Origin: Archaeoglobaceae archaeon
GTDB lineage: Archaea; Halobacteriota; Archaeoglobi; Archaeoglobales; Archaeoglobaceae
Direction of reading: 5' to 3'
Assembly: GCA_027064525.1 (NCBI GenBank)
Contig: JAMOPJ010000021.1
Span: forward strand, 1 to 47,646
DNA: 47,646 nucleotides
Both the position numbers and the translations under genes were made by a program. The notes beneath the pieces are model-generated. The model did not search any database, was not told the origin of the DNA, and saw only the letters and a list, made by a program, of their open reading frames with translations. Positions within the stretch are counted from its first letter, which is position 1. The number at the start of each line of letters is the position of its first letter. This document shows positions 42,281-45,827 of this stretch, piece after piece.

Positions 42281-42290
42281 ATTTATATAT
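42281..42290 (+). promoter_or_regulatory. TATA box of the ATPase-GTPase-Roadblock-V4R operon
   Basis: ATTTATATAT is centred about 28 bp upstream of the ATG at 42314, the usual archaeal spacing for a leaderless transcript. A second TATA-like stretch, TATATTTATATATAAG, lies 30 bp further upstream and may be an alternative promoter or the start region of the divergent gene. Confidence 0.55.
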
Positions 42291-42313
42291 TGCCTGAGAT
42301 AGTGATTATCATA

Positions 42314-42961
42314 ATGAGAATTGACATCCTAGACATCGATATAGACAGTAACAACATCATGGTGATCGGCCCACCTTTGGTAGGAAAGTCGATATTCGTT
42401 AGAAACATCGTCCTCGAAAAGGTTAGCGGCGGATCCGGAGGAATATACATCACAACAAAAGATACGGCCGAAACAATCTTGGACTGGTTTCAAAAGTTCA
42501 ATCTGAACGAGATCAAGATCATAGATTGTGTTTCGAGGACGATCTTCTCAGATGCCCCAGACACGGACGACATAAAGAGGGTATCTATTATGGATCTGAC
42601 CGGAATTTCAGTTCGAATAAACATGTTTCTTGAGAGGTTTTGGAAGTCTGGGAAGAGAGACGTCGTGATAGCTTTCGATTCAGTCTCAACAGTTCTGATG
42701 TATCTAAATCCTCAGACGGTGTTCAGGTTTTTGCATGTCTTAACGAACAGGATTAAGAGCTTCGGAGCTTTTGCGTTTTACACCGTCGATGAGAACATGC
42801 ACGATGAAAGGACTATTGCGATGCTCAAACAGCTTTTCAACGGGGTTATCGAGCTTAAAGATGAGGGAAATCGGAGAATATTCAGATACGTTAGTCCTTC
42901 CATAAGAACCGAGTGGAAGGAGTTTAACATAGTCAACGATAAGTTGGAGGTGTTGTCATGA
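42314..42961 (+). CDS. KaiC/RecA-like ATPase, first gene of the GTPase-module operon
   Basis: A single-domain RecA/KaiC-type ATPase of about 215 residues. Walker A GPPLVGKS lies at 19-26, followed by VYITTKD-like GIYITTKDTAETILDWF, and Walker B RDVVIAFDSVS at about 115-124. Single KaiC-like domains in archaea serve as signal-transducing ATPases, often beside chemosensory or motility genes. The next gene begins inside its stop codon (4-bp overlap). A TATA box 28 bp before the ATG at 42314 excludes a TTG at 42290. The operon partners (Ras-like GTPase, Roadblock, V4R) indicate a switch module; the output is unknown. Confidence 0.85.
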   Translation: MRIDILDIDIDSNNIMVIGPPLVGKSIFVRNIVLEKVSGGSGGIYITTKDTAETILDWFQKFNLNEIKIIDCVSRTIFSDAPDTDDIKRVSIMDLTGISVRINMFLERFWKSGKRDVVIAFDSVSTVLMYLNPQTVFRFLHVLTNRIKSFGAFAFYTVDENMHDERTIAMLKQLFNGVIELKDEGNRRIFRYVSPSIRTEWKEFNIVNDKLEVLS

Positions 42962-44124
42962 AGATAGGCATCCCCGTGCTGGATGACCTGCTTAAGGAGA
43001 TTCCCCGTGGCAAGACTCTAACCTACTATATCGATCCAGAGGTGGAGGGAGATGTATTCGGCATGCAGACCCTCTACAGAAACCTCGAGGAAGGTTACAG
43101 ATGCGTTTACGTCACATCGACGATGAGTCCGATGAGCCTGAGGAACAGATTCAAGGAGTTCGGATGGTTCGTAGATGATTTTGAGAAATTCTCCATAGTT
43201 GATGCTTATTCCTCCTATGTTGGAGCCACTTCAGATGAGAAATACGTGGTTAAGGATCCGACGAATTTAGATGAATTTGATGAGGTGATAAGAAAGGCGA
43301 TAGACGAAAACGATCTCATCGTATTCGGATCTCTTTCGACGATAATCGACATATGCGGAGAGGAGACTTTGACTTATTTTGAGAAGTGGAAAAAATACGC
43401 TGAGAATTCTGTAATCGTTTCGAATTTTACGGCTTGGCCTTATCCTGAAGAGATCTTGAACAAGGTTAAGGATATGTCCAATGCGGTAGTTAAGATTGGA
43501 GGAATTCATCACCGCGTTATTTTGGGGCACTACTATGGAATTCTGAAGGTGGACTGGACTCAGGTTAAAGGAAGAGCAGTCTTATTCAAGGTTGTAAAGC
43601 CCGGTGGTGTTAAGGCATACATACCGAAGATACTCGTAACCGGTCCGTTTAACGCAGGAAAATCGACGTTCGTCCACGCGATCTCTAATAAGGCAATTTC
43701 GGTTGATAGATTGGGAACTACGGTAGCTTTGGATCACGGAAAGGTGGAATACAAGGGATTCACGATAGATGTCTTCGGAACACCCGGCCAAGAAAGATTC
43801 GATCCTATTTTGAGGGTTTTGGGAAGCGAAGCTTTGGGAGTCATACTCGTCATCGATTCGACGAAGCCGGAGACTTTCCCAAGAGCTAAGCAGTTGCTTG
43901 AGAAGACCACTCAATTTGGCCTGCCTTATGTTATTGCCGCAAACAAACAAGACCTACCGAATGCTTTGAAGCCAGAGGAGATAAGAAAGCTCATGCATTT
44001 GCCAGAAGATGTCCCGATCATTCCGACTGTAGCCACAAAAAAGATAGGAGTTTATGAGGTTTTGGATGCTTTGATAAAGTTGCTGATAGGTGAGGGTTAT
44101 GGCAAGTCTGAGGGAGCAACTTGA
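42958..44124 (+). CDS. RecA-like domain fused to a Ras-like small GTPase
   Basis: A 388-residue fusion. Residues 1-215 resemble the KaiC-like ATPase, but where Walker A should be there is YYIDPEVEGDVFGM, so the domain probably cannot bind ATP in the usual way. Residues 222-380 are a Ras/MglA/Rup-type GTPase: G1 GPFNAGKST (229-237), a possible switch-I Thr in LGTTVALD, G3 VFGTPGQERF (about 271-280; Asp of the usual DTPGQ replaced by Gly, as in the COG2229-type GTPases), G4 NKQD (about 329-332) and G5-like VATK. It sits between the first ATPase and the Roadblock gene, overlapping both. It likely links nucleotide state of the GTPase to the ATPase partner. Confidence 0.88.
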   Translation: MKIGIPVLDDLLKEIPRGKTLTYYIDPEVEGDVFGMQTLYRNLEEGYRCVYVTSTMSPMSLRNRFKEFGWFVDDFEKFSIVDAYSSYVGATSDEKYVVKDPTNLDEFDEVIRKAIDENDLIVFGSLSTIIDICGEETLTYFEKWKKYAENSVIVSNFTAWPYPEEILNKVKDMSNAVVKIGGIHHRVILGHYYGILKVDWTQVKGRAVLFKVVKPGGVKAYIPKILVTGPFNAGKSTFVHAISNKAISVDRLGTTVALDHGKVEYKGFTIDVFGTPGQERFDPILRVLGSEALGVILVIDSTKPETFPRAKQLLEKTTQFGLPYVIAANKQDLPNALKPEEIRKLMHLPEDVPIIPTVATKKIGVYEVLDALIKLLIGEGYGKSEGAT

Positions 44125-44467
44125 AAAGATTTTGAAAGATTTGAAGGCAGTTGGGGACATAGAAGCTTCTGCTATAGTATCGAGAGACGGGTTGCTCATA
44201 GCTGCAGATATCTCCCACAATGTAAATGCTGAAGCTTTCGCTGCGATGACAGCAACTATGCTCGGTGCTGCGGAGACGGCAACATCGGAATTGGGTAAGG
44301 GCATCCCGGATAGAGTTATAGTTGAGGGGAAGGAGGGTAAGATCATCGCCACCGGAGCTGGTCCAAAGGCTCTGCTCGTCGTTATGACCTCTCCAAGAGC
44401 AAACTTGGGTTTGGTCCTGCTCGAAATGGGTAGGGCGAGTGAAAAGATTAAGGAGCTGTTGGGGTGA
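44099..44467 (+). CDS. Roadblock/LC7 domain protein (MglB-like)
   Basis: A single Roadblock/LC7 domain of about 122 residues: an N-terminal helix (LREQLEKILKDLKAV), IEASAIVSRDGLLIAADI and VGxxD-like strands ending LLVVMTSPRANLGLVLLEM. In bacteria, Roadblock proteins such as MglB dimerise and act on Ras-like GTPases of the MglA group. The gene overlaps the GTPase gene by 26 bp, and a GGTGAG ribosome site precedes the ATG at 44099. It is the natural GTPase regulator or platform in this operon, though GAP activity is inferred only. Confidence 0.9.
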   Translation: MASLREQLEKILKDLKAVGDIEASAIVSRDGLLIAADISHNVNAEAFAAMTATMLGAAETATSELGKGIPDRVIVEGKEGKIIATGAGPKALLVVMTSPRANLGLVLLEMGRASEKIKELLG

Positions 44468-45060
44468 TGATCGTGGATCCGTTCGAGTTCCTCGTAACTG
44501 AAGATCTGACCAAGAAGAGTAGAGAAGAGCTTGAGAGCATGTTCTTAGAGCGGGAGGATGGTAGAATACTGTTTTTGGGTAGAATTCCTGTTGCTTCTCT
44601 CTACGCTACGTTCTTGGCTGGGATCTATGCAGAATTGACGAAGATAGTAGGTAAAGCTGCAAAGGGGTTGATATTGACGGCTTCAAGAAACGGGGGCTAT
44701 AGGGCTGGGAGCGCGATAAGGAGACGGTATCAGAAGAAATTTGGAGATTTGACGAGGGACAAGGCTTTCCAGATCGCAAAGAACATGATAACAGTATGGG
44801 ACAAGTGCTTCGGCTGGGGCAAGTTCGAGTTCGAATTGTGTAGCGATAAGATAGTCGTCAAGGTAACGGGCTCCTTCGAGGCTGTGGGATACACGAAATT
44901 GAAGAAGGGCAAGTCTGATACTCCGATATGCTGGATGTTGTTGGGCTACGTCTGGGGGCTTCTTGAGGGGTTGTTGGACTGCAGATTAAATGGAGAGGAG
45001 AAAAAATGCTTGGCAAGAGGTGACGAGTTCTGCCTCTTTGAATACGGTATCGGCGATTAG
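44467..45060 (+). CDS. V4R domain protein (Bet3-related ligand-binding fold)
   Basis: A V4R (4-vinyl-reductase-like) protein of about 198 residues. The helical N-terminal part holds PVASLYATFLAGIYAELTKI, and the C-terminus has LLEGLLDCRLNGEEKKCLAR then GDEFCLFEY, the paired cysteines typical of V4R. V4R domains bind small hydrophobic molecules or serve as sensors, and the eukaryotic TRAPP subunit Bet3 is a relative. The ATG at 44467 overlaps the Roadblock stop by one base. In this operon it may be the sensor or scaffold for the GTPase. It converges with the next gene by 4 bp. Confidence 0.87.
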   Translation: MIVDPFEFLVTEDLTKKSREELESMFLEREDGRILFLGRIPVASLYATFLAGIYAELTKIVGKAAKGLILTASRNGGYRAGSAIRRRYQKKFGDLTRDKAFQIAKNMITVWDKCFGWGKFEFELCSDKIVVKVTGSFEAVGYTKLKKGKSDTPICWMLLGYVWGLLEGLLDCRLNGEEKKCLARGDEFCLFEYGIGD

Positions 45061-45677
45061 ATCTTCAGAAGATCCAACGCCAAAACCTTGTTGTCTTCAA
45101 ACTCTATTGCAAAGTTATCCCAGAATACGCATGTTCCCAACACTATCAGCTCTCCACCCATGTCGAGCTTGACACCGAATGCTGGATTTTCCAATCCGGT
45201 GGGATGGCACTTAGCAGTCTCGAAGGAAGAGATTACTATGCCATCCTTAGCCGTAACTGAGGCCGAGCAGGGCATAACCACTGTGTGATCTTTATACTTT
45301 CCTTTTGGGAAGAGTATGTCGTCGTAGTTGTTTTCGGGATCCATTATGACATCGTTGTTTATCCTCACCGGCACATTCATCTTGGCGAGCACCTTGTTTA
45401 TCCTCTCTGCAACGCCATCCATGTTGCTATAGTATGCCGCGAAGATTATCTTCTTCCCAGCTTTAAGCCATCTCTTGATCCTCGCAACTTCCTGACTTCT
45501 AAAGTCCTTTTCTGGGTAATTGAATACTATGACGTCGTATTCTCCAAGCTTACTGAAGTTCTTGATCTCGTAAATTTCAATATCTTCCTTCTCAGCAAAC
45601 TTTCTAAGCTTGGAGAAGTAATAGTAATCTTCAATCGTAAATTCGCCATGACTGGCATCCCAGCCGACAACGCTCAT
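45057..45677 (-). CDS. DUF4350/GATase-like domain protein
   Basis: About 206 residues with an alternating beta-alpha pattern like the glutamine-amidotransferase-like or DUF4350 fold: VVGWDASHGEFTIEDYYYFS, then GEYDVIVFNYPEKDF and KRWLKAGKKIIFAAYYS, and an end region GELIVLGTCVFWDNFAIE. No catalytic triad typical of true amidotransferases is visible. The ATG at 45677 lies about 28 bp from an AAATTTTATTTTA box; an upstream extension would run into the tRNA gene. Partner or substrate unknown. Confidence 0.65.
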   Translation of the reverse strand: MSVVGWDASHGEFTIEDYYYFSKLRKFAEKEDIEIYEIKNFSKLGEYDVIVFNYPEKDFRSQEVARIKRWLKAGKKIIFAAYYSNMDGVAERINKVLAKMNVPVRINNDVIMDPENNYDDILFPKGKYKDHTVVMPCSASVTAKDGIVISSFETAKCHPTGLENPAFGVKLDMGGELIVLGTCVFWDNFAIEFEDNKVLALDLLKI

Positions 45678-45723
45678 GCCAGCATTTAATTGGGTCGTAA
45701 AATAAAATTTACCATGCGAAATG

Positions 45724-45731
45724 TTTTTAAG
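45724..45731 (+). promoter_or_regulatory. Box A of the tRNA-Gly promoter
   Basis: TTTTTAAG ends about 24 bp before the first tRNA base (45755), the usual place of a TATA-like box A for archaeal stable RNA genes. It also faces the gene at 45677 on the other strand. Confidence 0.5.
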
Positions 45732-45754
45732 CATCGGAAAGATTATATCAATGA

Positions 45755-45827
45755 GCGCGGGTAGTCTAGCCCGGTAGGACAACGCCCTTCCGAGGCGTTG
45801 GCCCGGGTTCAAATCCCGGCCCGCGCA
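45755..45827 (+). tRNA. tRNA-Gly (anticodon UCC)
   Basis: A complete cloverleaf of 73 nt with discriminator A: acceptor stem GCGCGGG pairs with CCCGCGC, anticodon stem ACGCC/GGCGT holds loop CTTCCGA with anticodon TCC at 45789-45791, and T arm CCGGG-TTCAAAT-CCCGG is perfect. Box A lies upstream and T-runs follow. No intron and no encoded CCA are seen. Confidence 0.96.

Follow-up and report, generated by a model that had tools for sequence, protein, structure and literature searches.

Ras-like GTPases whose genes lie beside that of a Roadblock protein are known from the MglA/MglB polarity switch of Myxococcus and Thermus and from the archaeal 'Group 4' MglA GTPases (PMC4316618), and the operons of the actinobacterial conservons (CvnABCD) include genes for a sensor, a Roadblock protein (CvnB) and a small GTPase (CvnD). 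In archaea, KaiC-like proteins and inactivated KaiC (iKaiC) proteins with signalling partners have been proposed as hubs (Makarova 2017, as cited in PMC5847659). V4R domains are found in MopR, PoxR, DmpR and MsvR and share a superfamily fold with the TRAPP subunit Bet3 (TRAPPC3), including its Asgard counterpart. Each of these elements, the MglA-Roadblock pair, the KaiC-like hub with inactivated domains and the V4R sensor, is already known separately. Here, we describe an operon that holds relatives of all three, found in a 47,646 nt stretch of DNA (contig JAMOPJ010000021.1 of assembly GCA_027064525.1, positions 1 to 47,646; the window) from an Archaeoglobaceae archaeon. The genome is of the Archaeoglobaceae type and 1.89 Mb in size.

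Four co-directional genes on the + strand of the window, at 42314–42961, 42958–44124, 44099–44467 and 44464–45060 (all window coordinates below are on the + strand unless stated), encode a KaiC-like protein, a RecA-GTPase fusion, a Roadblock protein and a V4R protein. A previous reading of the sequence (the original prediction) had placed these open reading frames here, in this order and under these names; place, order and strand were confirmed, and Pfam/NCBIfam profiles agree with the names. It had also described the set as a TRAPP/Rab-like switch with an added ATPase. The reading that we favour, with a little better than even confidence, is an MglA/MglB-like small-GTPase module carried by a KaiC-type scaffold; in the Archaeoglobaceae, a V4R sensor with a zinc site would have been added to it. 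No description of this specific RecA-GTPase fusion or operon turned up in the literature searched, though a prior mention in the archaeal KaiC-hub survey (Makarova 2017) is possible.

The conserved unit is a set of three genes

Loci were counted in GTDB contigs. Eighteen of 22 have gene 1, gene 2 and the Roadblock gene in that order, two are cut by contig ends, and two, both from Alkanophagales, are rearranged, with the Roadblock gene upstream and gene 1 decayed. The proposal that the genes form one operon is upheld by this conservation of the core order. In the phylum as a whole, 51 of 295 genomes contain a match at a threshold of 1e-30, including a more distant Methanomicrobiales-like variant (the order name is inferred), and the three-gene core is present in Methanocellales, ANME-2, Alkanophagales, Hydrothermarchaeota and others. 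Because the first three genes recur across the whole archaeal phylum, the four-gene set appears to be a real signalling module.

The V4R gene lies outside this core. No V4R gene was found beside the module in the ANME-2, Methanocellales and Alkanophagales loci examined; each of the 15 Archaeoglobaceae genomes with the module has one, either directly behind the module (G000, G081, G112, G122, G273, G075, G224, G296, G069, G141, G174, G219, G278 and G298) or with one gene between (G244). A distant lineage (loci L022 and L034) has its own V4Rs, which are only 22–30 % identical, plus a second Roadblock gene behind the module. Hence, conservation of the four-gene order outside close relatives, one of the tests that the original prediction had set itself, is half borne out: it holds for one distant lineage with different V4Rs, and the order is otherwise confined to the Archaeoglobaceae. 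Given its constant presence in the Archaeoglobaceae and the dissimilar V4Rs of L022 and L034, the V4R seems to be an add-on sensor, which may have been recruited on more than one occasion. A single ancestral V4R lost everywhere else was considered and is not favoured, as the V4Rs of the L022 lineage are so divergent and this lineage groups apart; in a tree of gene 2, Archaeoglobaceae are grouped (100/99) and separate from L022, though the deep order is not settled by it.

The GTPase and its Roadblock partner

Gene 2 (42958–44124) encodes a protein of 388 aa in which a pseudo-RecA/KaiC domain (residues 1–215) is followed by a small GTPase (residues 222–378). The profiles matched are KaiC (2.3e-13, residues 2–218) and, over residues 221–374, Arf (1e-16) and small_GTP (8.1e-18). 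An AlphaFold2 (AF2) model (predicted local distance difference test, pLDDT, 86.4; predicted template modelling score, pTM, 0.80) gave the same division when searched with Foldseek, the N-terminal part matching the KaiC-like PH0284 (3e-16) and the C-terminal part Arf (6e-12). By profile, too, the solved structures nearest to the GTPase are those of Arf, and MglA ranks lower.

The members of MglA groups 2–5 are defined by GTPGQ in the G3 motif, a Thr that stands in for the Arg finger in G2 and, for groups 4 and 5, a G4 motif [NT]KxD. In gene 2, the G1 motif is GPFNAGKS (43642–43665), the G3 motif GTPGQERF (43777–43800) carries the signature of MglA groups 2–5, and G4 is NKQD (43942–43953). Among 23 aligned homologues, the TT of G2, GTPGQ of G3 and NKQD of G4 are each present in 23 of 23, and the G1 pattern GxxxxGK[ST] is invariant or nearly so. 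The DxxGQ of Rab substrates, which is typical of the eukaryotic Ras superfamily, does not occur in gene 2. On these alignments, the GTPase is the only strictly conserved predicted catalytic unit of the module, and GTP hydrolysis is probably a conserved trait of it.

The Roadblock/LC7 protein encoded by gene 3 (44099–44467, 122 aa; Robl_LC7, 3.5e-17) is most similar among solved structures to other Roadblock/LC7 proteins, with CvnB5 and MglB next. It contains the Asp30-Gly31 pair that is found in MglB-type regulators of MglA groups 2–5, and Asp30 is retained in 22 and Gly31 in all of 23 homologues. Helix 2, FAAMTATMLGAAETA (44225–44299), is the counterpart of the helix of MglB that, from both monomers, touches switch 1 and switch 2 of MglA (PMC6876712). 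Of 98 segments compared for entropy, this one is second lowest and the lowest begins one residue further on.

At one locus (L051; G019:C1:91629–95801, − strand), the pseudo-RecA domain, GTPase and Roadblock are fused in one open frame of 568 aa, a natural fusion that provides a Rosetta-stone link between GTPase and Roadblock. The fusion has lost the catalytic Gln of the GTPase (GTPGH) and the Asp of the Roadblock together, and the gene 1 adjoining it has a degenerate Walker A (GCK). The motifs and this fusion support the proposal, made originally from the window alone, that the gene 2 GTPase and the gene 3 Roadblock are a pair of the MglA/MglB kind. The locus shares with MglA/MglB and the Group 4 GTPases GTPGQ, NKxD, the Thr of G2 and the Asp-Gly of the Roadblock, and differs from them in having a KaiC-like gene as partner and a pseudo-RecA/KaiC domain joined to the GTPase. 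The survey of Wuichet & Sogaard-Andersen reported no conserved neighbours near Group 4 (euryarchaeal) GTPase genes (PMC4316618). The conservons differ in turn from this locus, which has a KaiC-like scaffold and a V4R sensor; neither a CvnA histidine kinase nor CvnC was found among the operon genes or the scanned neighbours.

The KaiC-like proteins

Gene 1 (42314–42961, 215 aa) was assigned by profile search (DUF7504, 3.5e-22; KaiC, 3.3e-10) and homologue comparison and is of the KaiC/ArlH-like type. Its Walker A motif, GPPLVGKS (residues 19–26, 42368–42391), is intact in the window species. When 26 homologues were aligned, the Walker A Lys was retained in 22 and the Walker B Asp in 16, while the Ser/Thr position is occupied by S in eight, E in eight and D in four, with A and N also occurring. 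In the Methanomicrobiales-like loci L052 and L053, the P-loop Lys of gene 1 is lost while the gene 2 GTPase is intact. As both the Mg-binding position and the Walker B Asp vary, ATP hydrolysis does not appear to be a conserved trait of the module.

The RecA/KaiC domain of gene 2 has a degenerate P-loop, PEVEGDVFGMQ (43036–43068), in which VEGDVFGMQ takes the place of the Walker A GxxxxGK[ST] and the P-loop Lys and Ser have become G31 and D32. The stretch EGDVFGMQ is invariant in the 23 aligned homologues, and distant members have mere traces of it. When the two RecA-type domains are aligned with hhalign (E 2.7e-16), G31 and D32 fall on the Walker A Lys and Ser of gene 1, and for this reason the gene 2 domain is taken to be a pseudo-ATPase that is paralogous to gene 1; the loss of the P-loop lysine marks it, by sequence, as not an ATPase. 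The 'added ATPase' is therefore doubtful, since the RecA-type domain of gene 2 is dead and gene 1 has no conserved Ser/Thr for Mg binding. Like the archaeal KaiC/iKaiC hubs, as far as PMC5847659 relays them, the locus combines signalling partners with KaiC-like domains and their ATPase-dead counterparts, and the difference from that account is that here the dead KaiC domain bears a GTPase and is tied to a Roadblock.

The V4R protein

Gene 4 (44464–45060, 198 aa, or from the GTG at 44473) matches the V4R profile at 6.6e-11. Its best match in the PDB by sequence is MopR (E 3.8e-6), and Foldseek searches with an AF2 model (pLDDT 81) ranked MopR (6e-8) ahead of PoxR and TRAPPC3 (1.4e-6). A predicted zinc site is formed by Cys156, Glu179, Cys182 and Cys190 (44929–45033), which lie at the spacing of C155/E178/C181/C189 of MopR (residues read from the alignment). 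In DmpR, the spacing of C151/E172/C177/C185 is close (PMC7264223), and in MsvR, C206/C232/C240 are spaced exactly as the three Cys are here (PMC3729527). In 15 homologues, the three Cys are invariant and Glu179 is present in over 90 %. Two GxxxG glycine pairs are common to V4R and Bet3 (PMC2253512); those in gene 4 are G78/G82 and G161/G165, of which G78, G82 and G161 are invariant in the same homologues and G165 is found in over 90 %.

By sequence, fold and zinc ligands, the V4R is thus nearest to the MopR/PoxR/MsvR sensors, with TRAPP/Bet3 second. It differs from these sensors in standing alone, without an AAA+ or helix-turn-helix part, and profile searches found no DNA-binding domain in it. 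That gene 4 has features of a ligand or redox sensor is supported by these comparisons, in line with the ligand-sensing role originally suggested for it. It and the Roadblock of the operon are the only matches to their respective profiles in the window genome.

Genomic context

In all nine genomes of the sister genera g7 and g8, the V4R gene is followed, on its own strand, by a precorrin-2 dehydrogenase gene (cysG_Nterm). Closer examination of five of them (loci L119–L123) showed a gap of approximately 35–47 bp between the two and, next, a gene for an AhbA-AhbB siroheme decarboxylase fusion. Cytochrome bd oxidase genes are found upstream of the module in two g7 genomes, and a TatC gene is found in the g8 context. 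In G244 (genus g12), the gene between Roadblock and V4R encodes a protoglobin (PF11563, 4.8e-10; locus L124, G244:C79, 5093–5653, − strand), possibly a gas-sensing input; a globin-Roadblock fusion is known in a bacterium (PMC4476040). As the operons of sister genera run into siroheme/heme genes or hold a protoglobin, the physiological axis may be heme, oxygen or redox, and the context is suggestive of one of these as the input or output of the module. The neighbours of the module in ANME-2 (TruD, YhbY and S19e) are housekeeping genes and uninformative.

Possible roles of the module

In the scheme that we favour, gene 1 would assemble with its paralogue, the pseudo-RecA domain of gene 2, into a hetero-oligomeric platform, on which the GTPase, the one strictly conserved NTPase as judged by its motifs, would cycle between GTP and GDP. 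A Roadblock dimer would bind the switch regions of the GTPase via helix 2, as a GTPase-activating protein or as a platform, as homology, conservation and the one natural fusion suggest. The V4R, presumably a dimer with a zinc-braced cavity, could respond to the redox state of its cysteines or to a ligand, either hydrophobic or a tetrapyrrole, and in doing so would alter the state of the Roadblock and GTPase. A more specific version is tentative: a Ras-like GTPase pathway gated by a ligand or by redox, in which the V4R (joined by a protoglobin in one genus) detects tetrapyrrole, oxygen or redox state, determines the GTP state of the GTPase on its dead-KaiC scaffold and so adjusts siroheme/heme and oxygen-related functions. 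Several observations weigh against the favoured scheme. In the genus of the window, the siroheme gene pair sits elsewhere (contig C32 of the window genome), and for that reason the heme link may reflect one ancestral rearrangement in g7/g8. The phenol-anchoring His/Trp dyad of MopR has no match at the corresponding positions of gene 4 in the PoxR/MopR alignments, and the MsvR-type cysteines could equally form a plain structural zinc site. Finally, no Roadblock gene lies beside the module in the Methanomicrobiales-like loci L052 and L053 and it is not obviously replaced, other Roadblocks in Methanomicrobiales-like genomes scoring at best 54–83 bits compared to 124–189 for most true orthologues.

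An alternative is that the RecA-fold proteins are the active parts and that the GTPase serves in assembly or regulation. The module would then be a KaiC-type hub controlling an appendage, the chromosome or a metabolic process, a role put forward for KaiC homologues of archaea in general. Both RecA-fold parts are indeed KaiC-like, and archaeal KaiC-like and iKaiC proteins are proposed hubs in the survey relayed by PMC5847659 (Makarova 2017). However, it is the GTPase motifs that are invariant, while gene 2 has lost its P-loop and gene 1 may have S, E, D, A or N at the Walker A Ser/Thr position, and the GTPase of L052 and L053 is intact beside a gene 1 without its Lys; we regard this role as unlikely. 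Were the V4R a redox sensor for transcription or metabolism, sharing a transcript with a three-gene core that is the whole machine but making no contact with it, the occurrence of the module elsewhere without V4R would be explained, and the V4R of g7/g8 could serve the siroheme genes that it directly precedes. Yet it has been kept with the module in every Archaeoglobaceae genome that has it despite changing outer neighbours, a second lineage has placed its own dissimilar V4Rs behind the same Roadblock, and the profile searches detected no DNA-binding domain in gene 4, making simple hitch-hiking quite improbable.

The original TRAPP/Rab-like description corresponds to a mechanism in which Roadblock and V4R together act as a TRAPP-like guanine nucleotide exchange factor (GEF), a Bet3/longin-like platform by which the GTPase is opened so that its nucleotide can be exchanged. 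V4R and Bet3 have a common fold and the two GxxxG pairs, TRAPPC3 structures are among the top fold matches to gene 4, behind MopR and PoxR, and the MglA-MglB complex has been described as organised like Ypt1-TRAPP (PMC6876712). Against this, the V4R is outside the conserved core and only a lineage-specific partner, and it is nearer to bacterial sensors of phenol and redox, whose zinc ligands it keeps. Asgard TRAPPC3 also binds zinc, and the site is replaced in mouse Bet3. Most of the GEF site of TRAPP is made up by the TRAPPC1/TRAPPC4 longin heterodimer; profile searches of the operon proteins found no longin match, only the Roadblock, and the GTPase is of the GTPGQ type and not Rab-like. The description is, hence, not supported and a TRAPP-like GEF is very unlikely here; the resemblance is at the level of the superfamily fold, as has likewise been remarked for MglA-MglB itself (PMC6876712).

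To our knowledge, almost no systems have been assigned to archaeal small GTPases outside Asgard. A phylum-wide three-gene unit of the kind that we favour would provide a defined partner set for an archaeal Ras-like GTPase and another route, besides MglA and the conservons, to a prokaryotic GTPase switch. The V4R add-on would place beside a GTPase-Roadblock pair a Bet3 relative whose features are those of a sensor rather than a tether, which bears on the availability of parts before TRAPP.

Operon layout and other features

A TATA-like box, TTTATATA (42282–42289), was read from the sequence approximately 28 nt before the ATG at 42314, and because of this position gene 1 most likely starts at that ATG and not at an upstream TTG. 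The spacing suggests a leaderless mRNA. Shine-Dalgarno-like stretches precede genes 2, 3 and 4 and, with the TATA-like box, fit a single transcript of genes 1–4. The overlaps, originally given as 1–26 bp, are 26 bp for genes 2 and 3, as stated, though that of genes 1 and 2 is 4 bp, and for genes 3 and 4 the overlap is 4 bp with a gene 4 start at GTG 44464 and absent with one at GTG 44473, the start used in relatives.

Some further Roadblock and V4R genes were encountered. At L022 (9561–11865), three V4R and two Roadblock genes lie behind the module, and the Roadblocks are near-copies, which suggests a recent local duplication. The Roadblock genes of the g9 and g3 Archaeoglobaceae were rejected as orthologues, having a different gene beside them. 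Archaeoglobaceae loci L083, L086 and L096, from genomes without the module, contain another two-gene unit, made up of a Roadblock gene and one for a 250–290 aa protein of unassigned kind. On contig G292:C99, a GTPase and a V4R gene are separated by 1.7 kb; this contig is probably either unrelated or a contaminant and was left out of consideration. In L052 and L053, the module adjoins a gene that reads as diphthine synthase (dphB).

The operon in the window is flanked on one side by a divergent ornithine cyclodeaminase gene and on the other by a convergent gene with no assigned function. The latter (45057–45812, − strand) has weak matches to ABC_transp_aux, DUF4350 and IFT52-GIFT, and its end meets the V4R stop codon.

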